Of a DNA stretch of 64,000 bases, positions 6,080-57,614 are shown piece by piece; position 1 is the first letter of the stretch, and the number at the start of each line of letters is the position of its first letter. Both the position numbers and the translations under genes were made by a program. The DNA comes from Massilia soli (lineage in GTDB: Bacteria; Pseudomonadota; Gammaproteobacteria; Burkholderiales; Burkholderiaceae_D), in assembly GCF_016809835.1 (NCBI RefSeq), contig NZ_JAFBIL020000008.1, forward strand, positions 248,001 to 312,000, in the 5' to 3' direction. The notes below the pieces were generated by a model. It saw nothing but the letters and a program-made list of their open reading frames with translations. It was not told the origin of the DNA and made no database searches.

Positions 6080-6152
6080 GGCTGTCTCCTATGCGCTCTG
6101 AGCGAACACGCTCATTCTGGGGAGATTCGATGACAGCTTGATGACAGGGGTT

Positions 6153-6189
6153 TGTATCCCTGTGTATCAGGCACTGCGCCCGATACACA
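6153..6189. promoter_or_regulatory. TGTATC repeat cluster upstream of the ccdA-thioredoxin-RR-HK operon
   Basis: TGTATC occurs at 6153 and again exactly 10 bp later at 6163, followed by an inverted copy GATACA at 6182-6187; the last two are part of a longer dyad TGTGTATC - 13 nt - GATACACA (6161-6189). Tandem copies one helical turn apart are the usual geometry for OmpR/PhoB-type regulators, and such a regulator is encoded in the downstream operon. Confidence 0.5.
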
Positions 6190-6287
6190 AGATTGCACAA
6201 GGCGCCATCGCCCGACACACCCGGGATACCCCGCTCGGGTCCAATAGCCCCATACCGCGCTGCGGCCCATCATCCCGGATCTCCACC

Positions 6288-33120: not shown

Positions 33121-34386
33121 ATGGCTCAGCGTCACACCCGACTGCACCAAAGGACAATATCGCTAGCGGCACAAGCAATTTACAGTGATCACTGTCGCTA
33201 CCGCTCCGTCAACCCAGCCTTCCGCTGCCGCCACATGCGCTTCCAGCTCGATGGTTGCGCCGCAGTCACCGAAGCCGCCGGCGGCAGTAAAACGCGCCGG
33301 GTGTTCAGTTGTACCCCATCGGGCAGCGCCGGTAGCCGGACGCTGCAGGTCTTCCAATCGGCCACCGCCACGACCAGCCTGTCCAGCAAGGCAGTCGAGC
33401 ATCTCACGCCAGTGCTCGACATTGGCGAACTCAATTCCAGGGTGAACGTGGTGAAGGCCGACGGTACATTGTGGGTGTGGGAAAACGACTGGACCGCCAG
33501 CACCGCGGCCAATACCGTGATCACGCGCACGCAACTGGGGACCAACTACACCAAGCTGGAAGTGAGCGAGGAATCGGTGCTGGGAATCCGGACCGACGGC
33601 ACCTTGTGGGCATGGGGTTCCAACAATGCCGGCACGTTTGCCGATGGCCCGAGGGCCGGCAGCCCAACCCCGATTGAAATTGGCAAGGACTTCATCGAAG
33701 TCGCGGCAAAGGGCTCGCACACCAGCGCCGGGGGCCGGGTGGTCGGACTAAAGCGTGATGGATCATTATGGGCCTGGGGTTCCCGTTCGAGTCCGGTTCC
33801 GAATTCGTGGGAGCGCCAGTTCACCCCGCACCAGTTCGGCTCGGGCTTCTCCGCCCTTGCCGGGGGCAGCAGCGGGCTATCGATGGCGCTGCAGGCAAAC
33901 GGCAGCATATGGTCGTGGCACGAAAATATCTCGGACGCGCCATTTGTCGTGAAAAAAATCGGCGACGATTACCAGGCGCTCGCCACTGCCTATGGCGCTA
34001 CCTATGGCCTCAAGAAAAACGGCGATCTATGGGCGTGGGGCCGCAATGCGCCGAACCGCGGGGAGGTCGGCACAGAGGACGTGCCGGTGCTGGCCGGACA
34101 GGGTTATGCCTCGCTCGCGGCCGGCGCGTATTACACGATGGCGCTGAAGACCGACGGAACGCTCTGGGCGCACGGCAGCAATTCAGAAGGACAGTTCGGC
34201 GATGGCACAACGGGGGGCGCGCCCACGCTCACCCAGGTAGCGACCGGCGTGCGCAAGGTATGGGCCGGGGACTCATGCACCATCATCGAGAAGCGCAACG
34301 GAACGCTGTGGGGCACGTCCTATTGCAGGCTGGGTGTGACGTCCGGCATCCCGGCCCATGGCTTCCGCCAGCTGCCGCAGTTCTGA
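33121..34386 (+). CDS. RCC1-like beta-propeller protein, probably truncated at its 5' end
   Basis: The C-terminal ~300 residues form about six RCC1-type repeats, each with a DGTLWAWGSN-like core (KADGTLWVWEND, RTDGTLWAWGSN, KRDGSLWAWGSR, KKNGDLWAWGRN, KTDGTLWAHGSN), expected to fold as a propeller. Before them is a piece resembling the end of an Ig/IPT-like domain (QLDGCAAVTEAAGGSKTRRVFSCTPSGSAGS). Proteins of this kind are normally exported, but no signal peptide and no ribosome site is found at any start (33121 or 33235), and the N-terminal residues look non-coding. It is likely a fragment of a longer gene. Confidence 0.6.
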   Translation: MAQRHTRLHQRTISLAAQAIYSDHCRYRSVNPAFRCRHMRFQLDGCAAVTEAAGGSKTRRVFSCTPSGSAGSRTLQVFQSATATTSLSSKAVEHLTPVLDIGELNSRVNVVKADGTLWVWENDWTASTAANTVITRTQLGTNYTKLEVSEESVLGIRTDGTLWAWGSNNAGTFADGPRAGSPTPIEIGKDFIEVAAKGSHTSAGGRVVGLKRDGSLWAWGSRSSPVPNSWERQFTPHQFGSGFSALAGGSSGLSMALQANGSIWSWHENISDAPFVVKKIGDDYQALATAYGATYGLKKNGDLWAWGRNAPNRGEVGTEDVPVLAGQGYASLAAGAYYTMALKTDGTLWAHGSNSEGQFGDGTTGGAPTLTQVATGVRKVWAGDSCTIIEKRNGTLWGTSYCRLGVTSGIPAHGFRQLPQF

Positions 34387-34439
34387 TGCGACGTGTTTTG
34401 CGGGTGGCCGGGGCGGCGGCGCCGGCTATCCGAGCCTGA

Positions 34440-35687
34440 TCAGCCCAGCGTGTCGGCCCAGATATTGCGGGCCCAGTTGAACGCATACACGCCCTCCTGC
34501 GCACTGGCGTTGGCCGAGACGCCGCCCGACCCCGGCACCACGATCAGCGTCTTTTGCGCCGCGTCGTACGCATGCACCGACGCCACGTGAATGACGTCGC
34601 TGTCGGAGACGAAGCTGTAGCAGGTGTTGGTGAGCACCGGATGGGCGTCCGGTGCACGGCCGCCCAGCATGTCCACCACCGCCGCCGCGCACACTTTCGC
34701 ATGCTGGTTCGCCATGTGCGCGGACTTCGGCATGAACGGCGAGGTCTGGATGGCGTCGCCGAGCACGTGGACGTTGGCATGCACAGTCGATTCGAAGCTG
34801 AGGAAATTCACCCCGCACCAGCGCTGGTTCAGGTTTGCCAGTCCGGATTGCACGGCGATGGCGCCGGCACGCTGGGGCGGAATGATATTGAGTACGTGCG
34901 CATCGACGCGGTCCCCCAGTTCGGAAAACACCGCATTCGCCTGCGCCCTCACCGTCTTGAATTGCGGCCGGTAGTCGATCATGCCGCGATAGCGCTGCGA
35001 CCAGATCCGCTTGAACAGCGCGCCTTTCGAGACCACGTCGTCGTTGGCGTCGAGGATCAGCACCTTGGCGCGCGGCTTGGCGCGGCTGAAATACTGCGCT
35101 ACCTGGCAGGCACGCTCGTAGGGGCCCGGAGGGCAGCGATACGGCGCCGCTGGAATGGTCATGACGAAAGTGCCGCCATCGGGCATCTGTTCCAGCGCGG
35201 CGCGCAGCGCCAGCGTCGCCGGTCCCGCTTTCCACGCATGCATCGCGGTGCTTGATCCGGGCAAGTCGTCAAACATGAAGTCGATGCCAGGCGAAACGAT
35301 CAGGCGGTCGTAGCGCAGCACCTGCCCGCCTGCCAGCGTGACAGTGCGTTGAACCGCGTCGATGGCTCGCGCCGTATCGTGAATCACGCGGATGCCGTGT
35401 TTTGACGACAGTGCTGCATAGCTCATCGTGAGCTCTCCCAGCTGGCGCGATCCACCCAGCACCAGGTTGGACAGCGGGCAGGAGACAAAGCTGGCGTTCG
35501 GCTCGACCAGCGTGACCTCGATCGCCGCCTCGCTCCACATTCGCACATACTTCGCCGCGGTCGCGCCGCCGTAGCCGCCGCCGATCACCAGCACATGGGG
35601 CCTGGCTTGCCCGCCAATACTGGCGCAGCCGGTCGATGCCAGGGCCGCCGCAGTCCCCGCCGCATGAATGAACTGACGGCGCTTCAT
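34440..35687 (-). CDS. fccB: Flavocytochrome c sulfide dehydrogenase, flavoprotein subunit
   Basis: A 415-residue FAD protein of the FccB/SoxF group, which oxidises sulfide in the periplasm and passes electrons to its cytochrome subunit. The N-terminus MKRRQFIHAAG looks like a Tat signal and STGC could be a lipobox. VLVIGGGYGGATAAKY is the FAD-binding fold; the redox-active cysteine pair is Cys70 (FVSCPLSNLVLGG) and the Cys in NTCYSFVSDSD near residue 357. Its ATG overlaps the stop of the small cytochrome c gene. It is the last gene of the divergent sox locus. Confidence 0.92.
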   Translation of the reverse strand: MKRRQFIHAAGTAAALASTGCASIGGQARPHVLVIGGGYGGATAAKYVRMWSEAAIEVTLVEPNASFVSCPLSNLVLGGSRQLGELTMSYAALSSKHGIRVIHDTARAIDAVQRTVTLAGGQVLRYDRLIVSPGIDFMFDDLPGSSTAMHAWKAGPATLALRAALEQMPDGGTFVMTIPAAPYRCPPGPYERACQVAQYFSRAKPRAKVLILDANDDVVSKGALFKRIWSQRYRGMIDYRPQFKTVRAQANAVFSELGDRVDAHVLNIIPPQRAGAIAVQSGLANLNQRWCGVNFLSFESTVHANVHVLGDAIQTSPFMPKSAHMANQHAKVCAAAVVDMLGGRAPDAHPVLTNTCYSFVSDSDVIHVASVHAYDAAQKTLIVVPGSGGVSANASAQEGVYAFNWARNIWADTLG

Positions 35688-35974
35688 GGCTTCTGCCTCG
35701 ACAAATACACCGCGATCTCTTCGATCTGCTTGTCGGTGTAGCCCTTTGAGATCTGATGCATGATGGTAGCGGGACGCGCACCGGTTTTGAACGCGCGCAT
35801 GCTCGCCACCAGCGCGTCCTTCGGCTGCCCTGCCAGCACCGGCAGGGCATTGCCCGCGCCGGCGCCGTTGGTGCCGTGGCACGCCGCGCAACTCGCGTAC
35901 AGGCGCTGGCCGTTGGCGGCCGCCGCACTGCTGGCCAGCGCCAGCACCATCCCAAGCGTCAATCCGATCCGCAT
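35684..35974 (-). CDS. Small periplasmic cytochrome c (FCSD/SoxE-like haem subunit)
   Basis: A 96-residue protein with a signal peptide (cleavage after SSAAAA, about residue 20) and one haem site Cys29-Cys32-His33 (YASCAACHG). A methionine ligand is offered by IMHQISKGY, and the chain ends in a helix IEEIAVYLSRQKP typical of class I cytochromes. It is translationally coupled to the FccB gene, so it most likely forms the haem half of a flavocytochrome c. Relatives encoded in sox clusters are called SoxE. Ten bases separate it from soxA. Confidence 0.88.
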   Translation of the reverse strand: MRIGLTLGMVLALASSAAAANGQRLYASCAACHGTNGAGAGNALPVLAGQPKDALVASMRAFKTGARPATIMHQISKGYTDKQIEEIAVYLSRQKP

Positions 35975-35984
35975 GATCACCCTT

Positions 35985-36740
35985 TCAAGGCCGCACACCC
36001 GGCGACTCCATCGCCATTCCCCTGGCGCGCGCGGCCAGGTACAGTTCCAGCTCCACCAATTCAAGCGCGCCATACGGCGGCACCTCGGCGCGCACGCCGC
36101 TCATGCAATTGCGCAGGCGCCGCTGCAGCGATCCCATGTCCTGCCATTCCAGCCGGTAGATAGGATACGCGCTCGCGTGCCCTTGCGGTATCGTGCTGCC
36201 CGCCAGCCGCTTGCCCCAGTTGGCGTCATGGCACTGCGCGCACGACAAATTCAATTGGCCGATCCGCTGGTTGAACAGCTGCTTTCCGCGCTCGGTCGGC
36301 TGCTTCAGGCGCGCGTCGCGCGGCGGCGCCACCGGCATGCCGCGCGACTGCAGCGCAACGTAGGCTTCCATCGCCAGCAGTTCGCGGCTCTCGGGGCGCC
36401 ACGGCGGCAGCTTCTGCTTGCCCACGCGGCACTGGTTGATGCGCTGCGCAAGGTTGATCGGCAGCTTGCTGTGGGTGTCGAAGGCCGGAAAGCGCGCAGC
36501 CACGCCGCGCATGCCCGCGCTGGCGTCGCCGTGGCAGCTGGCGCACGACTTGCCGTCCCTGCCGGCTTTCGCCTGCCATTGCGCCTCGCCGTCTCCCACC
36601 CACAGCATGGCAGGGTTTAGCGTGTCGTCGCGCTGCATGGCCTGGGTCGACGCGCCCATGAACTGGGCGCCGGACTTGCGTTCGTCGGCGGCGGCGCCAA
36701 GCGCGAGCGCACAGGCCAGCAACCCAAAGGCGCGCTTCAT
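35985..36740 (-). CDS. soxA: SoxA of the divergent locus, diheme type
   Basis: A 251-residue c-type cytochrome with signal peptide. Two haem motifs are seen, Cys66-x2-Cys69-His70 (SCASCHGDAS) and Cys167-x2-Cys170-His171 (SCAQCHDANWG), and the cysteine expected as active-site haem ligand is Cys212 (RLRNCMSGVRAE). SoxAX joins thiosulfate to the carrier cysteine of SoxY. The SoxA of the second locus has only one haem motif, so the two copies represent different subtypes. Its start overlaps the soxZ stop (ATGA). Confidence 0.92.
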   Translation of the reverse strand: MKRAFGLLACALALGAAADERKSGAQFMGASTQAMQRDDTLNPAMLWVGDGEAQWQAKAGRDGKSCASCHGDASAGMRGVAARFPAFDTHSKLPINLAQRINQCRVGKQKLPPWRPESRELLAMEAYVALQSRGMPVAPPRDARLKQPTERGKQLFNQRIGQLNLSCAQCHDANWGKRLAGSTIPQGHASAYPIYRLEWQDMGSLQRRLRNCMSGVRAEVPPYGALELVELELYLAARARGMAMESPGVRP

Positions 36741-37060
36741 CCGGCCACCGTGATTGCGGCGGTCTCCGTTTGCGAGAAACCGTTATCGCCTTCCCACAAG
36801 AATTCGAGCGTGCCGGTGTCGGTCGCCACGGTATGGAATGCGATGTATGGATTGGCCGAGATGGCCGGATGCAGTTCGGCCGCAAACACCTGTTCGCCGT
36901 TGTAGCGAACCGTGAAACGGCGAATGATGTCGCGCTTCTGCACCACGCCGTCGGCGCCGGGCCGGTAGCCGGTTTCCATCGTGTGGCCGATCAGCGCGCG
37001 TATTTCGATGATCTCACCGCGCCTGGCTGTTTTCGGCATATTGATCAATGCGCGTGCCAT
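36737..37060 (-). CDS. soxZ: SoxZ of the divergent locus
   Basis: A 107-residue immunoglobulin-like periplasmic subunit without its own signal peptide, which binds SoxY and is exported with it. ARRGEIIEIRALIGHTMETGYRP is the SoxZ hallmark, and LHPAISANPYIAFHTVATDTGTLEFLWEGDNG matches the second sheet. The Shine-Dalgarno AAGGAGAG lies inside the last codons of soxY, one base between the soxY stop and this ATG. Confidence 0.93.
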   Translation of the reverse strand: MARALINMPKTARRGEIIEIRALIGHTMETGYRPGADGVVQKRDIIRRFTVRYNGEQVFAAELHPAISANPYIAFHTVATDTGTLEFLWEGDNGFSQTETAAITVAG

Positions 37061-37061
37061 C

Positions 37062-37517
37062 TCAGCCCTCTCCTTCAATGCAGGCGGCAAGCGTGACGAT
37101 CACGTCGGCGCTGCCGGACCAGAAGCTGCCGTCGCTCATGCGCGCCACCGCAATCAGCTTCTGCGATGTGGCCATGCGGATGCGGGTCGATACCTGCGCC
37201 TTGCCGGAACGCGGGCCAAGCGTGAACTTGACCACATCGGTCTGCGGATTGCGCTCGTTGAAAACCGCAATCGCTGTTACATGGTCTGCCGCGGTCATCG
37301 GGCTGTCGACCGCCACGGTGATGGGCACCGCATTGCCGTTGTCGACCAGCGCGGCCACATCCAGCTTGACCCTGCCTGCTGTGGGCGCAGCCCCGCCGGT
37401 AAAGGCGCCGATCGCCGCCGCCATCTCGGCGGGCGTGGCAAACACCGGACCGGCGATGGCAACGGCGATGCCTGCTGCGAGCAGTTTGCGTCGGTGAAGA
37501 TTGGCTGTGTCTGTCAT
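37062..37517 (-). CDS. soxY: SoxY of the divergent locus with atypical carrier tail
   Basis: A 151-residue SoxY-like protein with an N-terminal export signal (HRRKLLAAGIAVAIAG, Tat-like without the full consensus). The core matches SoxY: VPITVAVDSPMTAADHVTAIAVFNERNPQTDVVKFTLGPRSG and ARMSDGSFWSGSADVIVTL. SoxY normally ends in a flexible GGCGG whose Cys carries the sulfur substrate. Here the end is LAACIEGEG: Cys146 is present but is flanked by alanines and followed by five residues, two of them acidic. Whether it still works as a swinging arm is open. Start overlaps the soxX stop. Confidence 0.9.
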   Translation of the reverse strand: MTDTANLHRRKLLAAGIAVAIAGPVFATPAEMAAAIGAFTGGAAPTAGRVKLDVAALVDNGNAVPITVAVDSPMTAADHVTAIAVFNERNPQTDVVKFTLGPRSGKAQVSTRIRMATSQKLIAVARMSDGSFWSGSADVIVTLAACIEGEG

Positions 37518-37939
37518 TGGCTCGGCTGCTGTCGTAAAGTCTGAAGGTACGCTACCACGTCTTCGACCTGCTGCGCGCTCAGGATGGTTTTGTCTTTCAA
37601 CTGGGTGGGCACGCGTTGCAGCCCTTCGCTCGCGTAGTAGGCCGGCATGATGGTGCCAGGGTTAATGCGGCGCGAGTCGACCATCCGCAAGCGCAGTTGC
37701 GCTTCGGTCCAGCGGTCACCCGCGCCAGACAGGTCGGGCGCCAGGTTGCCCTGGAAGCGCTCTTCGGGAATCGGGCCGGTATGGCACAGCAGGCACAATC
37801 CGAGCTGGCGGTTGGCCACGATCGCGCGGCCGCGGACGGCGTCGCCCGGCGTGGCGGTCAGCGGCGTGGAAAGGCCCTCCTGTGCCTGCGCCAGGGTGCA
37901 CGCGCAGGACAGCAGGATGGCGGCGAGACGGACCGTCAC
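37514..37939 (-). CDS. soxX: SoxX of the divergent locus
   Basis: A 141-residue monohaem cytochrome c with signal peptide (cleavage after LAQAQ). The haem site is Cys49-x2-Cys52-His53 (GLCLLCHTGPIPEERFQGNLAPDLSG), and TIMPAYY provides the axial Met; VEDVVAYLQTL is the terminal helix. It pairs with SoxA. It is shorter than the 205-residue SoxX of the second locus. The start is GTG and lies only 16 bases after the stop of the molybdenum enzyme gene, implying one transcript. Confidence 0.92.
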   Translation of the reverse strand: MTVRLAAILLSCACTLAQAQEGLSTPLTATPGDAVRGRAIVANRQLGLCLLCHTGPIPEERFQGNLAPDLSGAGDRWTEAQLRLRMVDSRRINPGTIMPAYYASEGLQRVPTQLKDKTILSAQQVEDVVAYLQTLRQQPSQ

Positions 37940-37955
37940 GCCTGGTCCCGCACCG

Positions 37956-40148
37956 TTACGCCTTTTTCAGGCTGTGGTTTTTAAGCGGCAGGTCGCGCAC
38001 GCGCTTGCCGGTGGCGGCGAAGATCGCGTTCAGCACCGCTGGCGCGGCGACGGCAATCGTCGGCTCGCCCACGCCGCCCCAGAAGCCACCCGACGGCATC
38101 GTGATGGTCTCGACCTTCGGCATCTCGTCCATCTTCAATACCTGATACGTGCTAAAGTTGTCCTGCTCCATGCGGCCATCCTTGAGCGTGCACTCGCCAT
38201 ACAGCGCGGCCGACAAGCCATACACGAACGAGCCCTCCACCTGCGCCTCGATCTGCTGCGGGTTCACTGCGTGGCCCGGATCGGTGGCCGCCACGATGCG
38301 GTGAATCTTCAGCTTGCCGTCCTTGCTGACCGAGACCTCGGCGCAGGCCGCGACATAGCTGCCGAAACCCATGGTCTGCGCCAAGCCGCGGAACACGCCC
38401 TTCGGCGGCTTCTTGCCCCAGCCCGCGCGCTCGGCGACGGCATTGAGCACCGCCAGGTGCTTCGGATGGTTGGCCATCAGCTTGCGTCGCAGCGCCAGCG
38501 GATCCTGCTTGGTGGCGTGCGCGATCTCGTCGATGAAGCACTCGAGGTAGATCGCGTTCTGGTTCAGGTTCACGCCGCGCCAGAAGCCGGCCGGCACCGG
38601 CGGATTGCGCATCGCATGGTCCACCAGCAGGTTGGGGAAAGTGTAGCCGATCGACGCGTCGGGACCGGGCGCGTTCAGGCCCTGGAACACGACCGGGTCC
38701 TTGCCGTCCTTGATATTTTGCGGCAGCACCGACGCCAGGATCGACTGTCCCGAGATACGCATGTGCAGGCCGGTGACCTCGCCCTTGGCATCCAGGCCGG
38801 CGGTCAGTTTGCACTGGGTGACCGGATGGTAACGGCCATGCAGCATGTCTTCTTCGCGCGTCCAGATCAGTTTGACCGGCGTGCCGGGCATCTCCCTGGC
38901 GATCGCCACGGCCTGGCGCACCCAGTCGTGGGTGGCGCCGCGGCGGCCAAAACCTCCGCCCAGATGGATTTTATAGACCTCGCACTTTTCAGGCGGCAGG
39001 CCGGACGCTTCGGACGCCGCGGCCAGTGCCGCTTCGCCGTTTTGCGTCGGCGTCCACACTTCGCATCGCTCCGGCGTGAACTTCACCGTGGCGTTCATGG
39101 TTTCCATCGTCGCGTGGTTCTGGTGCGGGTACGAATACACCGCCTCCACCTTGCGCACCGCCTTGCCGATGGCCGCGCGCGCGTCGCCCTGCTGGTGGCC
39201 GACCACCGCATCGGCCGCTTCCAGGCCCGCCTTCAGGGTCGCAGCCACATCGGCGCTCGAGAGCTTGGCGTTGGGGCCTTCGTCCCACACGATCGGCAGC
39301 GCATCGAGCGCGGTCTTGGCGCGCCACCAGGTATCGGCCACCACCGCGACAGCGCTATCGCCCACCTGCACCACCTTCTTCACGCCGGGGCGCTTGAGTA
39401 CTGCGGCGGCGTCGAAGCTTTTGACCTTGCCGCCAAATACAGGGCAGTCCTTGATCGATGCGTTGAGCATGCCGGGCATGGTCAGGTCCATGCCGTAGAT
39501 TTGCGCGCCGGTGGTCTTGTCGACCGTGTCCAGCCTCGCCAGGCGCTTGCCCGCCAGCTTCCAGTCCTTCGGGTCCTTCAGCTTGACGTCGGTGGGCACC
39601 GCCAGTTTGCCGGCGGCTGCCGCGACCTTGCCGTAGCTGGTCTTGCGGCCGGTCGGCGTGTGCGTGATTACGCTGCTCGACGCCGTGCACTCGGCCGCCG
39701 GCACTTTCCACTCGTCGGCCGCGGCCTGCACCAGCATCATGCGCGCGCTGGCGCCGCCCTTGCGGACATAGTCTTGCGAACCGCGGATGCCCTGGCTGCC
39801 GCCGGTGGAGAAGCTGCCCCATGGCCGCTTGCGCGCCAGGTTCTCGCCCGGCGTCGGATATTCGGTGGTGACGCGGCTCCAGTCGCCGTCGAGTTCTTCG
39901 ACGACCAGCTGTGCCAGCCCGGTCAGCGTGCCCTGGCCCATCTCCGAGCGCGCGATGCGCACCACGATGGTGTCGTCGGGTCGCACCACCACCCAGGCGT
40001 TGACTTCGGGCGCGGCCGCGCCTTGCGCCTGCGCGTCGCCAAACGGAATGTGGAAGGCGACCATCAAGCCGGCGGCGCTGGCCGCGGAGGTTTTCAGGAA
40101 GCCGCGGCGCGATGGCGATGCTGGCACTGCGTTGTCGTCGCGGCTCAT
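37956..40148 (-). CDS. Molybdenum hydroxylase large subunit (IorB/xanthine dehydrogenase family)
   Basis: A 730-residue molybdopterin-cytosine-dinucleotide-type subunit related to isoquinoline 1-oxidoreductase beta. A Tat signal [15 protein letters not shown] opens the protein. [64 protein letters not shown] and the C-terminal [19 protein letters not shown] with catalytic Glu are family landmarks. It would oxidise an aldehyde or N-heterocycle in the periplasm. The FeS subunit is encoded directly upstream. Unusually, soxX follows after 16 bases; no dedicated cytochrome subunit is present, so Sox cytochromes might accept its electrons (inference). Confidence 0.93.
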
Positions 40149-40645
40149 GCTTTGTCTCCCACGTGCTGGATGGTCAGGCCGGCCGACTTGGCGTCGCCGC
40201 CCTTGGCCACCACCTTGATGGCGGCGCGGATGCGGTTGTAGGTGCCGCAGCGGCAGATGTTGGTCATGGCCGCGTCGATGTCGGCGTCGGTCGGCTTGGC
40301 TTTTTGCTTGAGCAGCGCGGCGGCGGCCATGATCATGCCCGACTGGCAGAACCCGCATTGCGGCACGTCGAGCGCGGCCCAGGCTTTTTGTACCGGGTGG
40401 CTGCCGTCCTTCGACAGGCCTTCGATGGTGATGATCTTCTGCTTGTCGGTCACTGTCGACACCGGGCGCACGCAGGTGCGGGTCGGCTCGCCATCGATAT
40501 GGACGGTGCAGGCGCCGCAGGCGGCGATCCCGCAGCCGTATTTGGTGCCGGTCAGTCCAAGCTGCTCACGCAGCACCCACAACAGCGGCGTGTCGTCTTC
40601 CGCCTCGAATTCGCGGTCCGTGCCGTTGACATTCAGCTTCGCCAT
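40145..40645 (-). CDS. [2Fe-2S] small subunit of the molybdenum hydroxylase (IorA-like)
   Basis: A 166-residue protein with two [2Fe-2S] domains: plant-type cluster [14 protein letters not shown] plus the Cys in RTCVRPV, and the helical cluster CGFCQSGM ... [13 protein letters not shown]. It has no signal peptide, so it should be exported with the Tat-targeted large subunit after folding. Its stop overlaps the large-subunit start (ATGA). It heads the run that continues into soxXYZA. Confidence 0.94.
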
Positions 40646-40907
40646 GCAGTGCTCCTGTAGTGGGTTGATCATGCGAGTGCCGTGTATATTACATCCGTTC
40701 AACACTGGCCGCACCGTCGCGACCCGGTGTTTTTTTCGGGTATTTACAGGGCGAACGCGGATACCGATGTAGTTTCCATATCGCATTTTCCCTCGCTGAA
40801 TTGCACCGAACATGGCCACATGTTAAGATTCGCCCGTGTCTGCCTGAACAACGCGGCACGTCTCTCATCGGCCCAGCTCCGCCGTCTTTAGCCACAGCGG
40901 AACAGCC
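40646..40907. promoter_or_regulatory. Divergent promoter region between the molybdenum enzyme and a response regulator
   Basis: On the minus strand TAATAT (40685-40690) is a possible -10 box for the molybdenum/sox operon. On the plus strand AACACTGG (40701-40708) pairs with CCGGTGTT (40724-40731) through one G-T pair and is followed by a T run, i.e. a terminator-like element although no plus-strand gene precedes it. AACATG-GCCA-CATGTT (40809-40824) is an operator-like dyad before the response regulator. Confidence 0.45.
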
Positions 40908-41306
40908 ATGTCCATTTCTACCCCTACTCCACAGCGCGTGCTTGTCATCGACGACAACAGCGACGCCGCCCACATGCTTTGCGATCTGGTCGCCATCCTG
41001 GGGCATGACACGCGTTACGCGCTCGATGGCCCTGCAGGGATAGCGCAAGCCGAGGCGTTCAAGCCTGACGTCATCTTCCTCGACATTGGCATGCCCGGCA
41101 TGAATGGCTTCGAGGTCTGCATCGCCTTGCGCGCGCTGGCCGTGCTCGAGCGCACCTGCATTGTCGCGCTGACCGCATGGACCGATGCGGCAACGCGGCT
41201 CAAATGCCAGCAATGCGGTTTTCACTTCCATCTGGCCAAGCCGGCGTCGATCGACCTGATCGAAAGTATCGTCGTCCAGGCAGCTGCGGCGCGCCGGCTG
41301 AACTAA
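40908..41306 (+). CDS. Single-domain response regulator
   Basis: A 132-residue receiver domain without an output domain: VLVIDDNSDAAHMLCDL, phospho-acceptor Asp in IFLDIGMPGMNGFEV near residue 60, Thr in VALTAWTD and Lys in HLAKPASID. Such proteins act as CheY-like or phosphorelay intermediates, often with hybrid kinases. No kinase gene is adjacent. It lies between the molybdenum/sox operon and zwf. Confidence 0.92.
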   Translation: MSISTPTPQRVLVIDDNSDAAHMLCDLVAILGHDTRYALDGPAGIAQAEAFKPDVIFLDIGMPGMNGFEVCIALRALAVLERTCIVALTAWTDAATRLKCQQCGFHFHLAKPASIDLIESIVVQAAAARRLN

Positions 41307-47334: not shown

Positions 47335-48735
47335 ATGACCACAACGGGAACGGCGATGTTCTTTCAACGGATAAAAACCAAGGGGCTGGGGCATAACGCT
47401 TACATGCTCGGCTGCGGCGACGGGCTCGCAGTCATCGTCGATCCGCGCCGCGATGTCGACGACTACCTCGCGCTTGCGCGCGCCAATAACCTGAGCATTG
47501 CGTATGTAATCGAAACCCATCGCCAGGAAGATTTCGAGTTCGGTTCGGCCAGCCTGGCACAACTGTCGGGGGCGAAAATCCTCGGCGGCACCCATCGCCT
47601 GTCCGGCCGCGTCGATGTGGCCCTGGCGGACGGGGAAGAATGCAAGGTAAGCACCACGCGGCTGGTGGCGCTGGCAACGCCGGGCCACACCCCTGAGAGC
47701 ATGTGCTACGCGGTGTATCCCGCAGATTCCGGCGACCAATGCTGGGGCGTGTTCACCGGCGACACGCTGTTCGTCGGCGATACCGGGAGAACCGACCTGT
47801 CGGACCCGGAGCGCACCGCCGAAAACGCCGGCATCCTGTACGACTCGGTCCACGCGAAACTCGCGCCGCTGGGCGGCCAGGCCTTGATCCTGCCCGCCCA
47901 CGGCGCCGGCTCTGCGTGCGGCGGCAACATCTCGCAGCGCGACGACTCCACGCTTGGCGTGGAACAGGCGACCAATCCCGTATTCAAGCAAAGCCGCGCC
48001 CAGTTCATCGACCAGAAAGTGCGCGAGAAGCTGCCGCGCCCGCCCTACTTTACGCACATGGAAGTAGTCAACCTCGATGCCGGGCGCGCGTTGCCCCCGC
48101 CCACCGGCCAACGCATCCTGCAGCCGCAAGAACTGCATCGCCGCCTGGCCGAGGGGCTGCTGATCGACACCCGCTCCCCCGAGGCGTTCGCCGCCTCGCA
48201 CATCGAAGGTTCATACAATATCTGGCTCGGCGGCCTGTCGTCGTTCGGCGGCTGGATCGCGAACGACGCGAGCACGATTTTCCTGGTCGTCGACGAGGGC
48301 GCGCAGGCGCCCGCCGCGGTCGCGGCGCTGGCCCGCATCGGCATCGACGGCGTCGCCGGGGTGCTGGCCAAGGGGGTTGCGGGATGGCGCGAGGCTGGCC
48401 TCGCCGTCGAGGCCAGCGGCACCACCAGCGCGCTCGAAACGTCGCGCTGGATGGAGGACGGCGATGTCCATGTGCTGGATGTGCGCGACGACATGGAATG
48501 GGAAGAAAAACATATTCCGGGCGCCCATCACATGTTCGTCGGCTACCTGGAAGCCAATCCGCTGCAGGTGCCGCACGAGCGCAAGATCGTTGTCCATTGC
48601 AGCGTCGGGCACCGCGCCGGCCTGGCCGTGAGCATCCTGCGGCGCCAGGGGTTCAGCAATGTCTACAACATGCTCGGCGGCCTGACCGCGTGGGAAAAAC
48701 TGGACCTGCCGCTTACAGGTTCAGATCGTCAATAA
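47335..48735 (+). CDS. Metallo-beta-lactamase-fold protein fused to two rhodanese domains
   Basis: A 466-residue protein: MBL fold (1-250) followed by rhodanese domains at ~265-350 and ~370-460. The usual HxHxDH metal motif is replaced by ETHRQEDFEFG, losing two ligands, while TPGHTPES, FTGDTLFVGDTGRTDL and LPAHGAGSACGGNIS remain. The first rhodanese lacks a catalytic Cys; the second keeps it (VVHCSVGHRAGLAVS). It therefore looks like a sulfurtransferase with a modified or inactive dioxygenase-like domain. Its position between the two sox loci supports a sulfane-sulfur role. Its 3' end overlaps the GlcG-like gene by 23 bases. Confidence 0.9.
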   Translation: MTTTGTAMFFQRIKTKGLGHNAYMLGCGDGLAVIVDPRRDVDDYLALARANNLSIAYVIETHRQEDFEFGSASLAQLSGAKILGGTHRLSGRVDVALADGEECKVSTTRLVALATPGHTPESMCYAVYPADSGDQCWGVFTGDTLFVGDTGRTDLSDPERTAENAGILYDSVHAKLAPLGGQALILPAHGAGSACGGNISQRDDSTLGVEQATNPVFKQSRAQFIDQKVREKLPRPPYFTHMEVVNLDAGRALPPPTGQRILQPQELHRRLAEGLLIDTRSPEAFAASHIEGSYNIWLGGLSSFGGWIANDASTIFLVVDEGAQAPAAVAALARIGIDGVAGVLAKGVAGWREAGLAVEASGTTSALETSRWMEDGDVHVLDVRDDMEWEEKHIPGAHHMFVGYLEANPLQVPHERKIVVHCSVGHRAGLAVSILRRQGFSNVYNMLGGLTAWEKLDLPLTGSDRQ

Positions 48736-50142: not shown

Positions 50143-51861
50143 TCAGGCGATCAGCCCGGGATTGCCCTTCACGCCGATCAGGCGCGGTGCATTGAGCTTG
50201 CGCGCCTTGACCGTCTTGTGCGAGCGCAGCCAGCCGCCCACCACGTTCCATACCGGCTCGCCCTGGGCGCCTTCGGCCACCGGCGCCCAGCCGGCCACCT
50301 TGTAGACCTTGTCCGCGTCGATCGGCTTGCCGTCCAGGCGCATGTCCTGGATGCGCGCACCCATCTTGCCCCTGGGGTCGATCGCGTACGTCATGCCGCC
50401 CACGCGCACCATGTCGCCGCCCTGCTGGTAGTAAGGGTCCGGATTGAACAGGTTGTCGGCCACGTCTTCCATGATGGTCTTGATCATCGCGCCGCTCAGG
50501 TTCGACACCGTGGTGTGCGAATACGTGGTGGCGGTCTGGTCCATCAGGTGTTCCATCGTGATGGCGCTGTTGGGCAACAGCGAGGTGCCCCAGCGGAAGC
50601 CCGGCGAAAACGCGATTTCGGCCTGCTTGACGTCCATCAGCGCGTCGACAATCAATTGGTCGAAAGTGCCGTTGAAATTGCCGCGGCGGTACAGCGTGCC
50701 CTCGGTCGTCGCCAGCTTTTCGCCCAGCCTGGCTTCGTATGGCGCGCGGATACGGGTGATCAGGGCATCCATTTCCTTGTCGGCCGGCAGGATATTGGCG
50801 AACACCGGCAGCAGGCGGTACTGGTAGCCCTGCACCTTGCCGCCGCGCACGTCGAAGTCGAGCACGCCAAGGAACTTGCTGTTGCTGCCTGCATTCGTGA
50901 CCAGCGTCTTGCCGCCGGCATTGCTGACGACAACCGGCGCCGGCATGCCGTCGTGGGTATGCCCGCCCATGATGGCGTCGATCCCGCGCACCCGCGAGGC
51001 CATCTTCAGGTCGACGTCCATGCCGTTATGCGACAGCACCACGACCACCTTGGCGCCCTTGGCGCGCGCCTCGTCGACGGTCTTTTGCATGTTCTCTTCC
51101 TGGATGCCGAAGCTCCAGTCCGGCACCATGTGGCGCGGGTTGGCGATCGGCGTGTACGGGAAGGCCTGGCCGATGATGGCCACCTGCACGCCATTCATTT
51201 CCTTCATGCTGAACGGGGCGAACACCTGGTCGCCGAAATCGTTGGTCTTGATGTTCTGGGCGACGAAATCGACTTTGCCCTTGAAGTCCTTGTTGACGAT
51301 TTCCTGCACCCGCTTGTCGCCCAGGGTCATTTCCCAGTGCGCCGTCATCACGTCCACGCCCAGCGCCAGGCAGGCGTCGACCATGTCCTGGCCGTTGGTC
51401 CACAGCGCCGTGGCCGAGCCCTGCCAGGTGTCGCCGCCGTCGAGCAGCACGGCATCCGGGCGCGAAGCGCGCATGCGCTTGACCAGCGTCGACAGGTGGG
51501 CGAAGCCGCCCACCTTGCCGTAGGTTTGCGCGGCCTTCTCGAAGTTCAGCGACGTGAAAGCGTATGCCTCGCGGGTGTTCGGGCGCGCGCCGACCGCGCG
51601 CAGCAGGTGTTCGCCCACCAGGTGCGGCAGGCGGCCGTAGGCGTCGCCCAGGCCCAGGTTGACGCTCGGCTCGCGGAAGTACATCGGCTTGAGCTGCGCG
51701 TGGCAGTCGGTGAAATGCAGGAAGTGGACGTTGCCGAAGCGCGGCAGCGAATACAGCGTGTCGGCCGCCCCGGCGCCGAACGCCGCGGTCGAATTGATCG
51801 CCATGCCCCCGGCTGCGGCGATGCCGAGCACCTGCATGAAATCGCGACGGTTCATACTCAT
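50143..51861 (-). CDS. soxB: Thiosulfohydrolase SoxB
   Basis: A 572-residue periplasmic dimanganese enzyme that hydrolyses sulfate from the cysteine-S-thiosulfonate on SoxY. It has a Tat-type N-terminus (MNRRDFMQVLGIAAAGG). Metal-binding motifs FTDCHAQLKPMYFRE, LLDGGDTWQGSATALWT, SHNGMDVDLKMA and IMGGHTHDGMPAP are intact, and the C-terminal domain contains GFRWGTSLLPNSAIT and QQGGDMVRVGGMTYAIDP. Only one soxB is present in the window, so the divergent locus either depends on it or does not use SoxB chemistry. Confidence 0.97.
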   Translation of the reverse strand: MSMNRRDFMQVLGIAAAGGMAINSTAAFGAGAADTLYSLPRFGNVHFLHFTDCHAQLKPMYFREPSVNLGLGDAYGRLPHLVGEHLLRAVGARPNTREAYAFTSLNFEKAAQTYGKVGGFAHLSTLVKRMRASRPDAVLLDGGDTWQGSATALWTNGQDMVDACLALGVDVMTAHWEMTLGDKRVQEIVNKDFKGKVDFVAQNIKTNDFGDQVFAPFSMKEMNGVQVAIIGQAFPYTPIANPRHMVPDWSFGIQEENMQKTVDEARAKGAKVVVVLSHNGMDVDLKMASRVRGIDAIMGGHTHDGMPAPVVVSNAGGKTLVTNAGSNSKFLGVLDFDVRGGKVQGYQYRLLPVFANILPADKEMDALITRIRAPYEARLGEKLATTEGTLYRRGNFNGTFDQLIVDALMDVKQAEIAFSPGFRWGTSLLPNSAITMEHLMDQTATTYSHTTVSNLSGAMIKTIMEDVADNLFNPDPYYQQGGDMVRVGGMTYAIDPRGKMGARIQDMRLDGKPIDADKVYKVAGWAPVAEGAQGEPVWNVVGGWLRSHKTVKARKLNAPRLIGVKGNPGLIA

Positions 51862-51876
51862 GTGAATCCTTCCTGC

Positions 51877-52494
51877 TTAATCTTTATTGACGGGCGAAGC
51901 CGGGTCGAGCAGCAAGGCGACCACGTCCTTGAGCTGCTGTTCGTCGAGGATGCCCTTGTGGCCGAAGCGCGGCATGTTCGAGCAGGCGGTGAAGGCCTGC
52001 GAGTTGTACACCTTGGCCCAGGTGTACTTCATGATTTCTTCGCTCTGGCCCCGCAGCTTGCCGTACTGGTACAGCGACGGCCCGATGTTGCCGAACGAGA
52101 TTTCCTTCTTGGTCATCTGGTGGCAGGCGTAGCAGTTGCCGCCGTTGGGTACGCCGGCCTTGTCGGACGACTGCATGCCGCGGCCGTTCTGGGCGATCTT
52201 CTCGCCCTCTTCCCACTTGCCGATGTACTGGCCGTCGGCCGGGTACTTGACCTGCTTGAGCTGGTCGGCTTCCAGTTTTGCCGCGATCTTTTTCGGGCGC
52301 TCCATCGGATAGGCGCTGCAGGTGCGCTGCGCCTCGTCCTGGGTCAGCGCGCCGTCGACCGTGGCCATGCCCTTGGAGCGGAAGTCGGCCTTCATCAGCG
52401 CTTCGGCCTGTTTGGCGTAGTCCGCCGCCAGGGCCGGCGCCGCGAAGCCGCCGAGCATGGCGGCCGCTGCGATCATGCGTACGATAGTCTTCAT
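51877..52494 (-). CDS. soxX: SoxX of the canonical locus
   Basis: A 205-residue monohaem cytochrome c with signal peptide (cleavage after PALA). The haem site Cys121-x2-Cys124-His125 sits in GGNCYACHQMTKKEISFGNIGPSL, and the Met ligand in CSNMPRFGHKGILDEQQLKDVVALLLDP. The ~90-residue N-terminal extension before the haem domain marks the longer SoxX subtype. It pairs with the monohaem SoxA encoded 10 bases upstream. Confidence 0.95.
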   Translation of the reverse strand: MKTIVRMIAAAAMLGGFAAPALAADYAKQAEALMKADFRSKGMATVDGALTQDEAQRTCSAYPMERPKKIAAKLEADQLKQVKYPADGQYIGKWEEGEKIAQNGRGMQSSDKAGVPNGGNCYACHQMTKKEISFGNIGPSLYQYGKLRGQSEEIMKYTWAKVYNSQAFTACSNMPRFGHKGILDEQQLKDVVALLLDPASPVNKD

Positions 52495-52504
52495 GGTGTT
52501 CTCC

Positions 52505-53311
52505 TCAGCGCTTCAGCGCGGGTGCGTTATAGGTGCCGCCGTCGGCATTCTTGGCCAGGAACATGGTCACCGCGGTGATCAGGTCCGACGCATACACCGG
52601 CTCGGGGAAGCGCTGCTGGCGGAAGCAGTCGTTCAGGCGGTGCTGCATGGTGCGCACCTCGCCCTGCGAGACGCGGTAGGCCGGCCAGGTGGTGTAGGCA
52701 GCCTGGGCGTTTTCCTTGTTGAGGATATTCGGCAGCTCTTGCAGGCGGATGCGCTGGCCATTGCTCGAGTGGCAGGTGGCGCAGGCGAAGTCATGCGCGC
52801 CGCCGCGGTAGAAGAACACTTTCTTGCCAATTTCGTAGGCCGCCTTTTCCTGCGGATGGCGGGTCGAGACAGCCATTTTCATGCCCTTCGACTGCGCCGT
52901 GATGTAGGAGACCAGCGCCTCGATGTCGGACGGGTTGCCGGCCGAGCCGAACGGGCGCGTGACGGCCTGCTCCGGCGTCAGGCCCTGCAGGTTGACACGG
53001 CAGTGCACCAGCCGCTGCTCCAGGTCCATGACCTTCTTGACGTCCTTGAAGTAACGCGGCAGCTCCACGTAGGCGCCCTTGAGCACGCCGGGGCCCTTGC
53101 CCAGGTCGCACTGTTCGAGCGATGCGGCGCGCGGGCCGTCCTTCTTGGTCCACAGCTCTTCGCCGCGCATTTCCCACAGTTCGGCGGGATTGCCGTCGGC
53201 CAGCAGCTGGCGGTATTTCGCAATCTCGTCGGTTGCCGAGGTCTGCGCCACGGCGCTGCCCAGCGCGGACGCGGCCAGCGCAGCGACGAGGTATTGGCTA
53301 GTGCGTTTCAT
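52505..53311 (-). CDS. soxA: SoxA of the canonical locus, monohaem type
   Basis: A 268-residue c-type cytochrome with signal peptide (cleavage after SAVAQ). The only haem site is Cys177-x2-Cys180-His181 (FACATCHSSNGQRI); the predicted catalytic Cys ligand is Cys229 (HRLNDCFRQQRFPEPVY). In place of the first haem, Cys68 (EQCDLGKGPG) and Cys104 (VHCRVN) probably form a disulphide. It differs in this from the diheme SoxA at 35985. It binds thiosulfate to SoxY together with SoxX. Confidence 0.95.
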   Translation of the reverse strand: MKRTSQYLVAALAASALGSAVAQTSATDEIAKYRQLLADGNPAELWEMRGEELWTKKDGPRAASLEQCDLGKGPGVLKGAYVELPRYFKDVKKVMDLEQRLVHCRVNLQGLTPEQAVTRPFGSAGNPSDIEALVSYITAQSKGMKMAVSTRHPQEKAAYEIGKKVFFYRGGAHDFACATCHSSNGQRIRLQELPNILNKENAQAAYTTWPAYRVSQGEVRTMQHRLNDCFRQQRFPEPVYASDLITAVTMFLAKNADGGTYNAPALKR

Positions 53312-53394
53312 GTCGTCTCCAAAAATTATTCGATGTGGTCTGTGCCACCTGGAAGCCGGCGCGGGAAATCCCGCGCCGGCCTGGCCCTGCTGAA

Positions 53395-53706
53395 TCAGGC
53401 GATGACGGCTTCGTCGGTACGGCTGTCGCCCTTGTTGTCGGTCCACGAGACGCTGACCTTGTCGCCCTTGGCGCCGCCCTTGAACTTGAACGACAGGAAC
53501 GGATCCTTCGAGATCGAGGTGCCCATGACGGCGTCCAGCACAACCTTGTCGTTCCACTTGGCGACCAGGTTCTGGATGAAGTGCGCCGGCACGGCCTTGC
53601 CGGCGGCGTCCTTGCGCTGGCCGGTCTCCATGTCGTGGCGGATCAGGACCTTGACTTCAACGGTGTCGCCTGAAACATTGGCGCGAATGCGCATCGGATT
53701 ACCCAT
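53395..53706 (-). CDS. soxZ: SoxZ of the canonical locus
   Basis: A 103-residue sulfur-carrier partner with MRIRANVSGDTVEVKVLIRHDMETGQRKDAAGKAVPAHFIQNL, the typical SoxZ N-terminus, and DPFLSFKFKGGAKGDKVSVSWTDNKG near the end. No signal peptide; exported as a complex with Tat-targeted SoxY, whose gene is 33 bases upstream. Confidence 0.96.
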   Translation of the reverse strand: MGNPMRIRANVSGDTVEVKVLIRHDMETGQRKDAAGKAVPAHFIQNLVAKWNDKVVLDAVMGTSISKDPFLSFKFKGGAKGDKVSVSWTDNKGDSRTDEAVIA

Positions 53707-53739
53707 GATGATTTCCTTTCAATTCGTTAGTCGGGCCGC

Positions 53740-54201
53740 TTAGCCGCCGCAGCCGCCAAGGGTGACCTTGATTTCCTTGCTCGCGATGAACCACTTGCCA
53801 TCGGCCTTGACCAGCGCGTGCACGTTCGAGGTGCCGCCCATCTTGACGCGGGTGCTGACCGACGCTTCGGTGCCGGCCGGGATGGTGAAGCGGGCCGACA
53901 GCGGGTTCGGGTTCTTTTCAACCAAGATCGCGATCATCTCGGTGTTCGGGATGGCGCTGGCCACCACCACCGGCACCACCGCGCCGTTCTCGGCGATTTC
54001 CGGTCCGGAGACCGAGACGTCCTTGCTGATGGTGTAGTTGTCGCCGCCCATCGCCTTGACCGCGTCGGCCAGCGACTTGGCGTCGAACATGCCGGCCTGC
54101 CAATCGGCTGCGAACACGTCGCTCGGCTTGAGCAGGCCGGCCGTGATGGCCAGCCCGAGGATGGAACCGATGCGCATGGCATCCCGTCGATTCTGATTCA
54201 T
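53740..54201 (-). CDS. soxY: SoxY of the canonical locus
   Basis: A 153-residue sulfur carrier with a Tat-like signal (NRRDAMRIGSILGLAITAG). It ends in the complete carrier arm VTLGGCGG, with the substrate-bearing cysteine third from the end. AIPNTEMIAILVEKNPNPLSARFTIPAGTEASVSTRVKMGGTSNVHALV is the conserved sheet. Contrast the SoxY at 37062, which lacks the GGCGG ending. Confidence 0.97.
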   Translation of the reverse strand: MNQNRRDAMRIGSILGLAITAGLLKPSDVFAADWQAGMFDAKSLADAVKAMGGDNYTISKDVSVSGPEIAENGAVVPVVVASAIPNTEMIAILVEKNPNPLSARFTIPAGTEASVSTRVKMGGTSNVHALVKADGKWFIASKEIKVTLGGCGG

Positions 54202-54224
54202 AGTCTTCTCCACTGAAATTGGAT

Positions 54225-54659
54225 TTACTTCACCTGGTCCAGCGCTTTGGCCAGCCGGTCCTTGTTCATCACGAAGCCCTTGGCCAGCTCGGCCGACTGC
54301 TTTTTCGCCTCGGCCAGGTTGACTGGCTTGCCGACCTGGATCACGCCGGCCATGGCCATGACCTTGTGCGGGTCGCAGACGTACACGTACACGCCTTCCT
54401 TGTCGAGCTTGACGGTGATTTCCTCATCCATCTTGCCCTTCCACTCGGACGCGCCGGCCGGCACGATCACGGCGGCGCTGTTGTGCGACGGATCGACCTT
54501 GACGAACTTGACGCTGTCGCCTTTCGCCACTTTCAGGAACGACGGCTCGAATACCATCGCGCCGTCCTTGCCCGTGTTGAGCATCTTTACCTGGTGCTCG
54601 GCGGCGCCGGCCGTGAACGCGGCCAGGCCGAGGATTGCCGCTACTACTGTTTTCTTCAT
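54225..54659 (-). CDS. Pseudoazurin-type blue copper protein
   Basis: A 144-residue periplasmic cupredoxin with signal peptide (cleavage after TAGA, about residue 19). Type 1 copper ligands are the His in VDPSHNSA and the Cys-His-Met set in YVYVCDPHKVMAMAGVI. EHQVKMLNTGKDGAMVFEPSFLKVAKGDSV is the pseudoazurin opening. Lying inside the sox operon between soxD and soxY, it probably carries electrons from SoxAX or SoxCD to the terminal oxidase. Confidence 0.92.
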   Translation of the reverse strand: MKKTVVAAILGLAAFTAGAAEHQVKMLNTGKDGAMVFEPSFLKVAKGDSVKFVKVDPSHNSAAVIVPAGASEWKGKMDEEITVKLDKEGVYVYVCDPHKVMAMAGVIQVGKPVNLAEAKKQSAELAKGFVMNKDRLAKALDQVK

Positions 54660-54729
54660 GCACTTCTCTCCAAGTTGACTTGCTGCTTTTGTCGGCGGGG
54701 TTCGGGCCCCGCTCCGGTCCAGTCGGCGC

Positions 54730-57136: not shown

Positions 57137-57242
57137 ACTGTCTCCTTGCTTATAATTTCTAATTTCTCATTGCAAGGAAAGTATATAGCTAATTACGCAT
57201 ATTCAAAAAGAACTTTCTTTCGTATGTGTATGCGCGTCGATG
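57137..57242 (-). promoter_or_regulatory. soxC promoter with candidate SoxR site
   Basis: Reading the minus strand, TTGAAT (57201-57206) and TATACT (57180-57185) are promoter-like boxes with a short 15-nt spacer. Between them lies a dyad-like ATAT-GCG-TAATTA-GCT-ATAT (57183-57202), the size of an ArsR-family operator. The soxR gene lies immediately upstream. Confidence 0.45.
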
Positions 57243-57614
57243 TTACGAGGTGGCTGCGGTGACGTTAAAGGTGTCCGACGCCTGGCGCGCGGCGCCGCGG
57301 CCCATGATGTTGGAGGCCACGCGGGTACACACGCTCTGGCAGATTTCCAGCGTCGCCGGATCGTCGATGCGGTAATAGACCTGGGTGCCCTCCTTGCGGC
57401 GGGCCAGGATCTTGGCGCGGAACAGCATGTTGAGCTGGCGCGACACATTGGCCTGGGTCGCCTCGATGGCCGAGACGATGTCGCCGACAGGCCGCTCGCC
57501 GTGGCACAGGCTGTGCAGGATCTTGAGCCGCGTCGGTTCGGAGAGCAGGAAGAAGAAATTCGATACTTCGTCAAACAGCTCGGCCAACTGCTCCTTGTTC
57601 AGGCTATCGTCCAC
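57243..57614 (-). CDS. soxR: ArsR-family regulator SoxR
   Basis: A 123-residue winged-helix repressor: FFLLSEPTRLKILHSLCHGERPVGDIVSAIEATQANVSRQLNMLFRAKILARRKEGTQVYYRIDD. Cys45 (LHSLCHGE) and the Cys in EICQSVCTRV near the C-terminus correspond to the two cysteines through which SoxR-type repressors sense sulfane sulfur. It starts with GTG. It precedes soxC on the same strand. A TATAAT box and a CCGGTA-CA-TACCGG palindrome lie upstream. Confidence 0.92.
   Translation of the reverse strand: MDDSLNKEQLAELFDEVSNFFFLLSEPTRLKILHSLCHGERPVGDIVSAIEATQANVSRQLNMLFRAKILARRKEGTQVYYRIDDPATLEICQSVCTRVASNIMGRGAARQASDTFNVTAATS

Follow-up and report, generated by a model that had tools for sequence, protein, structure and literature searches.

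An operon joining a molybdenum hydroxylase to an AACIE-arm SoxY in Massilia soli and across Alpha- and Betaproteobacteria

In the accepted scheme of the Sox system, as set out in the passages of PMC5336275 on this step, thiosulfate oxidation needs SoxB for the release of sulfate, which it achieves by removing the sulfonate from the carrier protein SoxY. Parts of two further papers describe divergent SoxYZ carriers that go with dehydrogenases of alcohols, methanol, and formate (PMC11237559, PMC12997753). The closest described gene set to the locus reported here is the second sox cluster of Starkeya novella, given in the passages on that cluster as soxX2Y2Z2A2F2 with a molybdenum (Mo) enzyme of the xanthine oxidase family, Snov_1975/1976 (Kappler et al. 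2013, PMC3797975). Here, we describe an eight-gene minus-strand operon of Massilia soli, located at 34440-40645 of a 64,000-nucleotide stretch (contig NZ_JAFBIL020000008.1, positions 248,001 to 312,000; hereafter the window, whose numbering is used throughout) and running iorA-iorB-soxX-soxY-soxZ-soxA-cytochrome c-fccB. Isoquinoline 1-oxidoreductase IorAB is of the two-subunit type, with one iron-sulfur (Fe-S) and one Mo subunit. A sequence-only reading of the window had taken the union of a Mo enzyme with a Sox carrier as an unfamiliar arrangement; that claim falls, as the cluster of S. novella already has it (PMC3797975).

We propose, at about an even chance, that the operon encodes a periplasmic carrier-and-enzyme module in which a dedicated SoxYZ presents cargo to IorAB. 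A more specific form of this proposal, which we advance tentatively and consider somewhat less probable than an even chance, is carrier-dependent carbon oxidation, in which the Mo hydroxylase would oxidize the carbon of an aldehyde or organic sulfur compound held on the cysteine of the Sox-type carrier, making up a SoxB- and SoxCD-independent Sox branch across Alpha- and Betaproteobacteria.

The operon and its conservation

The eight genes are as follows.

40145..40645, minus strand: iorA-like [2Fe-2S] small subunit of a xanthine-oxidase-family Mo hydroxylase, 166 aa (Pfam Fer2_2, 101.5 bits; Fer2, 41.5 bits)
37956..40148, minus strand: iorB-like Mo-cofactor large subunit, 730 aa (MoCoBD_1, 109.6 bits; MoCoBD_2, 102.9 bits)
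37514..37939, minus strand: soxX, monohaem cytochrome c with a GTG start (TIGR04485, 80.9 bits; cut-off 61)
37062..37517, minus strand: soxY of the AACIE-arm type, with cargo cysteine Cys146 and a twin-arginine signal (TIGR04487, 203.7 bits; cut-off 172)
36737..37060, minus strand: soxZ, the carrier's partner subunit (TIGR04490, 78 bits; cut-off 76; PF08770, 89.7 bits)
35985..36740, minus strand: soxA, dihaem, with Cys212 and Arg208 (RxxxC) kept (TIGR04484, 230 bits; cut-off 110)
35684..35974, minus strand: small monohaem cytochrome c (PF00034, 44 bits)
34440..35687, minus strand: fccB, a soxF-like flavoprotein of flavocytochrome c sulfide dehydrogenase (FCSD) (FCSD_central, 137 bits; FCSD-flav_bind, 81.2 bits)

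The tight packing reported in the sequence-only reading, with overlaps or gaps of 1-16 bases, can be read directly from the sequence and is confirmed: from iorA to fccB, the junctions are a 4-base overlap, a 16-base gap, a 4-base overlap, a 1-base gap, a 4-base overlap, a 10-base gap, and a 4-base overlap. A simple scan of the minus strand of 34200-41000 found no terminator-like site and one promoter-like site, at chance level. IorAB belongs to the xanthine oxidase family (PF02738, PF20256, PF00111, and PF01799 all above cut-off), and the N-terminus of IorB carries a signal like that of the twin-arginine translocation (TAT) pathway (R14 R15). No flavin adenine dinucleotide (FAD) subunit of the XdhB/PaoB kind is encoded among the operon's eight proteins. 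Elsewhere in the genome are two PF02625 matches to an XdhC-type maturation chaperone, both outside the operon, and the MoCoBD_1 domain occurs at five places, the operon's iorB being one. FccB is a member of the FCSD family (PF21706, PF09242), with C185 and C356 conserved; the small monohaem cytochrome c is probably its partner.

We scanned named genomes with a SoxY alignment; of the relatives found, at least 511 in number, 80 loci were kept (59 from Betaproteobacteria, 18 from Alphaproteobacteria, and 3 unassigned), including Massilia, Duganella, Pseudoduganella, Noviherbaspirillum, Polaromonas, Rhodoferax, Curvibacter, Bradyrhizobium, Mesorhizobium, Ancylobacter, and Acetobacteraceae. A lack of conserved synteny in relatives was one half of what the sequence-only reading had said would refute the link between Mo enzyme and Sox carrier, and this half fails: the link is kept in 77 of the 80, where iorB stands in one unit with soxXYZA; the other three (L171, L211, and L230) start inside the unit at contig ends. 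Among the matches listed, the nearest named SoxY loci are those of Massilia, Duganella, and Pseudoduganella, which fits Oxalobacteraceae, the family in which the sequence-only reading had proposed to look for conservation. None of the 80 loci has a match to SoxB, SoxC, or SoxD in flanks of up to 8 kb (shorter at contig ends). By tblastn, fccB is present in 39 of them, after soxA as in the window in 20, before soxX in 18 (all alphaproteobacterial by title), and before iorA in one. Gene order thus varies while content is constant. The commonest other neighbor is shared by only 15 of the 80 loci, the flanks being variable, and beyond fccAB no further constant partner gene was found in the 60 (see below) and 80 loci examined. 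Because the unit recurs over many families while its flanks do not, the association is more than chance.

When the AACIE model was run against 399 genomes of the order, 24 scored above its cut-off. From this search 60 places were taken, many of them below the cut-off: 52 hold iorB with soxYZ, one an iorB remnant, and seven no iorB. In three of the 52 paired loci (L094-L096), iorB and soxYZ are in opposite orientation. Viral contigs were scanned as well, and no relative turned up. On plasmids, pNMS14P1 of Methylobacterium carries the same eight genes by annotation, and pNgVX of Neorhizobium galegae carries the unit with an annotation that omits iorB and the small cytochrome; on pNgVX, a match to iorB sits at the expected place in two pieces, and the gene may be broken there. 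Comparing trees, 32 of the 43 strong splits for IorB conflict with no strong split of the four Sox proteins, and the alphaproteobacteria form a single group in the Sox tree, though not in the midpoint-rooted IorB tree. As the agreement is partial, we do not claim that the operon has always moved as one piece.

SoxY arm type and the Mo enzyme signature

The operon's SoxY is a member of the NCBIfam family "SoxY-related AACIE arm protein" (TIGR04487), which it matches with 203.7 bits against a cut-off of 172. With the model for true SoxY (TIGR04488), it reaches 94.2 bits, under the cut-off of 125, and the GGCGG arm that defines the classical protein is lacking. Judged by sequence, then, the carrier is a distinct SoxY with an AACxE-type arm in place of GGCGG.

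This arm tracks the partner enzyme. We mapped 200 loci, 35 of which have no SoxY and fall outside the arm count of 165. The arm cysteine is present in all 165; the arm is of a non-GGC type in 142 of 143 IorB-linked SoxY and GGC in nine of nine SoxB-linked ones, and none of these loci carries both IorB and SoxB. Because the loci were drawn by SoxY or IorB similarity, these counts describe a pattern, not a frequency in nature, and they include among the IorB-linked loci L053, which holds only a 32-residue remnant of iorB. Nine non-GGC SoxY have no adjoining IorB, namely L060, L064, L069, L071, L078, and L097 and the contig-cut L171, L211, and L230. Of a wider list of 90 places, 20 were fetched; in the phylum-wide sample of 20 loci, eight have an AAC or SAC arm with IorB and 12 a GGC arm without it, a complete split. 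The SoxY survey in PMC11237559 is described there, in the part on its sequence selection, as discarding sequences without GGC, and an AACIE-type arm would thus be missed in it.

Two of these loci deserve a separate mention. In L053, the last 32 iorB residues (5909-6004) stand before soxXYZA, the Mo enzyme having seemingly been lost and the sox part kept. In L097, soxYZ with an SGCGM arm lie behind two fccB-like genes, with no soxXA match.

In the window's IorB, Gln369 lies in TPTQNGE and Glu695 in a GEP-type position; in the xanthine oxidase family, the Gln belongs to the Mo site and the Glu is catalytic. Both residues are kept in at least 97% of 140 linked IorBs and at least 90% of 12 outgroup IorBs. 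Adjoining them, N370, E372, F689, and W690 are kept in 94-99% of the 140 linked and at most 25% of the 12 outgroup sequences, where L093, of the outgroup clade but linked to soxYZ, is counted among the 140 and not among the 12. The FW pair also occurs in 20 of 22 unlinked members of the clade (L098 has SW and L101 KW), so that the signature marks the enzyme and not its linkage. We had expected a strictly soxYZ-linked IorB clade, and the 22 unlinked loci inside it refute this. The closest solved chain to IorB is 8gy3_C, an aldehyde dehydrogenase large subunit, with a near full-length match.

Several loci stand out on the side of the enzyme. Four unlinked IorBs (L106, L109, L128, and L129) have an altered glycine-rich loop, SGCGLGRR or GCGFGRR in place of GGGFGRR. 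In L093, SoxYZ lie beside an outgroup IorAB of another subfamily without FW, a second and separate pairing of these protein kinds. In L110, an IorAB with the same signature (4417-6576) stands between formate dehydrogenase and selA/selB genes, as read by eye; this context, a single case, hints at one-carbon compounds.

The remaining partners keep their key residues as well. SoxA has two CxxCH motifs in 73 of 74 relatives and keeps C212 and R208 at 95% or above. In FccB, Cys185 and Cys356 are conserved (37 rows) and are presumably the active cysteines of FCSD.

A proposed pathway of carrier and enzyme

Which of these genes can part company bears directly on the role of the carrier. In about 20 loci, iorAB stand with soxYZ, and none of the three cytochromes looked for (SoxX, SoxA, and the small one of the operon) gives a match, while the converse, iorAB with soxXA and without soxYZ, does not occur in the 40 loci L098-L137, which were fetched mostly around IorB matches. 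The sequence-only reading had offered two roles, that the Mo enzyme gives electrons to the Sox cytochromes or that SoxYZ carries a substrate for it; this asymmetry favors the second over the first, and that earlier interpretation is overall partly supported. SoxA is found above cut-off elsewhere in all 25 genomes whose iorAB sits with soxYZ alone (21 loci viewed; G023, G114, G153, and G393 judged from coordinates), and where the SoxA locus was viewed, in 13 of these genomes, SoxA belongs to a different gene set that has a classical-type SoxY, or else adjoins a classical SoxX. Across the 399 genomes, with at most two candidates scored per genome, 65 have both an IorB of 46% identity or more and a SoxY of 88 bits or more; by the same thresholds, 11 have an IorB without a SoxY, 6 a SoxY without an IorB, and 317 lack both. 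Two of the 11 (G125 and G198; loci L116 and L117) have a linked soxY by blast that falls below 88 bits. In G131, G169, G263, and G293, a non-GGC soxXYZA and a clade iorAB are present at different places of one genome. IorAB is thus likely tied functionally to a dedicated SoxYZ of its own.

These data also bear on an explanation that we consider quite improbable, namely that IorAB works in the periplasm as a conventional oxidase of aldehydes or heterocycles, with the Sox cytochromes as mere acceptors and SoxYZ as a passenger. The Fe-S domains of IorA and the lack of an FAD subunit in the operon make a cytochrome acceptor likely, and the solved aldehyde dehydrogenase and the unlinked IorABs of the same clade would fit such an enzyme. 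Against this stand the roughly 20 loci that retain soxYZ without soxXA, the lack of any known redox cofactor in SoxYZ, and the correspondence between SoxY arm and partner.

If SoxYZ does present cargo to IorAB, the following course may be envisaged. SoxXA would join a thiol-bearing cargo to Cys146 of SoxY by an oxidative sulfur-sulfur bond, as in classical Sox, and the AACxE arm would present it to IorAB rather than to SoxB or SoxCD. IorAB would then hydroxylate the bound cargo, most likely at carbon, with oxygen from water and removal of two electrons, as expected from the chemistry of its family; by way of IorA's Fe-S clusters, the electrons would reach a c-type cytochrome, either SoxX/SoxA or the FccA-like protein, an acceptor suggested by the absence of an FAD subunit gene from the operon. 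Where present, FccAB may handle released sulfide or persulfide or keep SoxYZ active. Carbon is the suggested site of oxidation because both the enzyme family and its nearest solved relative, an aldehyde dehydrogenase, point there, and the cargo would most likely have a hydroxylatable carbon, either an organic thiol held as a mixed disulfide or an aldehyde held as a thiohemiacetal. To our knowledge, acting on protein-bound cargo would be unusual for a Mo hydroxylase of this family.

The earlier claim that SoxB and SoxCD are missing holds for the operon but not for the genome, as a complete classical sox locus lies on the minus strand at 50143-57614, about 10 kb away. Besides soxX, soxA, soxZ, soxD, and a gene for an ArsR-type regulator, it includes:

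50143-51861, minus strand: soxB
53740-54213, minus strand: soxY with a GGCGG arm
54225-54659, minus strand: pseudoazurin
55787-57136, minus strand: soxC

The genome accordingly has two SoxY, the operon's of the AACIE type and the classical locus's of the GGCGG type. Beyond the classical locus are a DsrE-like gene (57690-58112, labeled by eye) and a SoxH-like metallohydrolase gene (58133-59098). Between the two sox loci, on the plus strand at 47335-48735, lies a fusion of metallo-beta-lactamase-type and rhodanese domains with weak NCBIfam matches, which presumably resembles persulfide dioxygenase-rhodanese.

As to INDEPENDENCE from SoxB, 48 of 64 genomes drawn from SoxY matches have SoxB above cut-off. 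The whole module is present with no SoxB above cut-off in G005, G012, G060, G140, and G181 (96-99% complete) and in G100 and G272 (87-88%), and G242 and G330 have it on cut contigs, again with no SoxB above cut-off; contamination estimates for these SoxB-less genomes run up to 6%. SoxC exceeds its cut-off in just one of the nine, G140, and in six (six searched) the linked SoxA is the sole SoxA. A close SoxH-like stand-in for SoxB was not found in any of the nine, five having no match at 1e-15 and four only matches of 26-29%. Given the need for SoxB in the accepted scheme, these nine genomes suggest that the module is used otherwise or that its product is released by an unaccounted route.

The same genomes weigh on a further possibility, to us unlikely, that IorAB represents another kind of sulfane dehydrogenase besides SoxCD, oxidizing the SoxY-bound sulfur itself as SoxCD does. 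IorAB would occupy SoxCD's place in the scheme, SoxCD is also a Mo enzyme, and SoxXA and FccAB are sulfur enzymes; in addition, 13 of the 48 SoxB-positive genomes lack SoxC above cut-off (one of them, G382, with only an iorB remnant at its locus). Yet 37 of the 64 genomes, including that of the window, have SoxC above cut-off, as do 35 of the 48 SoxB-positive ones, which is no pattern of replacement, and SoxB is found in 0 of the 80 named loci. By the account in PMC5336275, moreover, a SoxY sulfonate needs SoxB, yet nine module genomes have neither SoxB nor a close SoxH-like hydrolase. As a replacement for SoxCD, IorAB is therefore set back on both counts, by the 37 genomes with SoxC and by the nine without SoxB.

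Published data from other species also bear on the substrate. In Bradyrhizobium diazoefficiens, according to the part of PMC5748708 on its sox genes, the one soxY that thiosulfate oxidation requires is soxY1 of locus I, soxY2 being dispensable. Three genomes (G606, G709, and G670) each have a high-scoring AACIE SoxY and a second, lower-scoring SoxY, which in G670 (L148, the one viewed) has a GGC arm and lies beside SoxB; among the named loci, Bradyrhizobium has the module at L214, L229, L230 (cut), L233, and L238. From this pattern and the Bradyrhizobium loci, soxY2 may well be of the AACIE kind. The published data argue against thiosulfate as the substrate of the module.

Several observations weigh against a dedicated carrier-and-enzyme pathway. 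The 22 loci inside the IorB clade without linked soxYZ, together with G319, which has a clade IorB and no SoxY match at all, indicate that IorAB can do without an AACIE-type carrier. Conversely, five whole soxXYZA loci with a non-GGC arm (L060, L064, L069, L071, and L078) have no adjoining iorB, unlinked iorAB being found in four of these five genomes. The SoxB-less G012 has a stop inside iorB, and the presence of SoxXA and a flavocytochrome suggests sulfur rather than carbon chemistry. In S. novella, the passages on the second cluster report very low transcripts on glucose, methanol, and thiosulfate, and the authors suggest that it may have no function there or a role under other conditions (PMC3797975); in the same passages, SoxAX and SoxYZ are described as undetected and the flavocytochrome subunit as low.

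That expression record, in the passages of PMC3797975, would suit an operon that is a seldom used relic or whose genes are co-regulated but share no pathway, as would the dispensability of B. diazoefficiens soxY2 for thiosulfate oxidation (PMC5748708, in the part cited above; its AACIE identity being inferred). We give this explanation a low probability. The unit is kept over two classes with Glu695, Gln369, SoxA Cys212/Arg208, and the SoxY arm Cys intact, and its content stays while its order varies; IorB is the best conserved of the five proteins compared, with a mean identity of 0.74 over 66 loci.

If SoxYZ is indeed a carrier for IorAB, it would be a more general periplasmic tether, with uses beyond thiosulfate. 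The module is found in soil and freshwater bacteria and suggests a periplasmic oxidation pathway. In metagenome work, genomes with these sox genes are readily taken for those of thiosulfate oxidizers; on this view, genomes that have the module and no SoxB would be misread. More broadly, the module recasts why bacteria keep a second sox cluster as a question that can be answered genetically.

Comparison with known systems

With the classical Sox system, the operon shares homologues of SoxXA and SoxYZ, the cargo cysteine, and the haem-ligand cysteine and the arginine of SoxA. It differs in having no SoxB or SoxCD, in its AACIE rather than GGCGG arm, and in a SoxA with two CxxCH motifs where the window's classical SoxA has one.

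On the side of the enzyme, the IorAB name is used here by resemblance to isoquinoline 1-oxidoreductase alone. The linked IorBs mostly have FW before the catalytic Glu, and TQN(G/A)E, where the solved aldehyde dehydrogenase 8gy3 has KPTGLGEP and NQWQS at the corresponding places.

The SoxYZ-like carriers associated with quinoprotein dehydrogenases (TIGR04557; the ped cluster in PMC12997753; SoxYZ-S2/S4 in PMC11237559) are, in the passages on them, likewise tied to carbon-oxidizing enzymes. Those carriers are fused SoxYZ proteins paired with pyrroloquinoline quinone (PQQ) dehydrogenases, whereas the operon has a separate SoxY and SoxZ, a Mo hydroxylase, and SoxXA.

The second cluster of S. novella is nearest. 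Comparing the texts, SoxAX, SoxYZ, a SoxF-like flavocytochrome, and a Mo enzyme stand in one operon without SoxB or SoxCD in both; the likeness is one of published gene content, and the passages on that cluster do not mention arm type or wider conservation. Its locus numbers place the genes for the Mo enzyme and the flavocytochrome together on the same side of soxXYZA, whereas in the window fccB ends the operon. In the literature searched, we found nothing in print on the breadth of its conservation, on the division of SoxY arms by partner, or on the signature of IorB. The gene content of the operon is already known from one species, and its wide spread, the split in SoxY arm type, and the signature of its IorB are the new parts.

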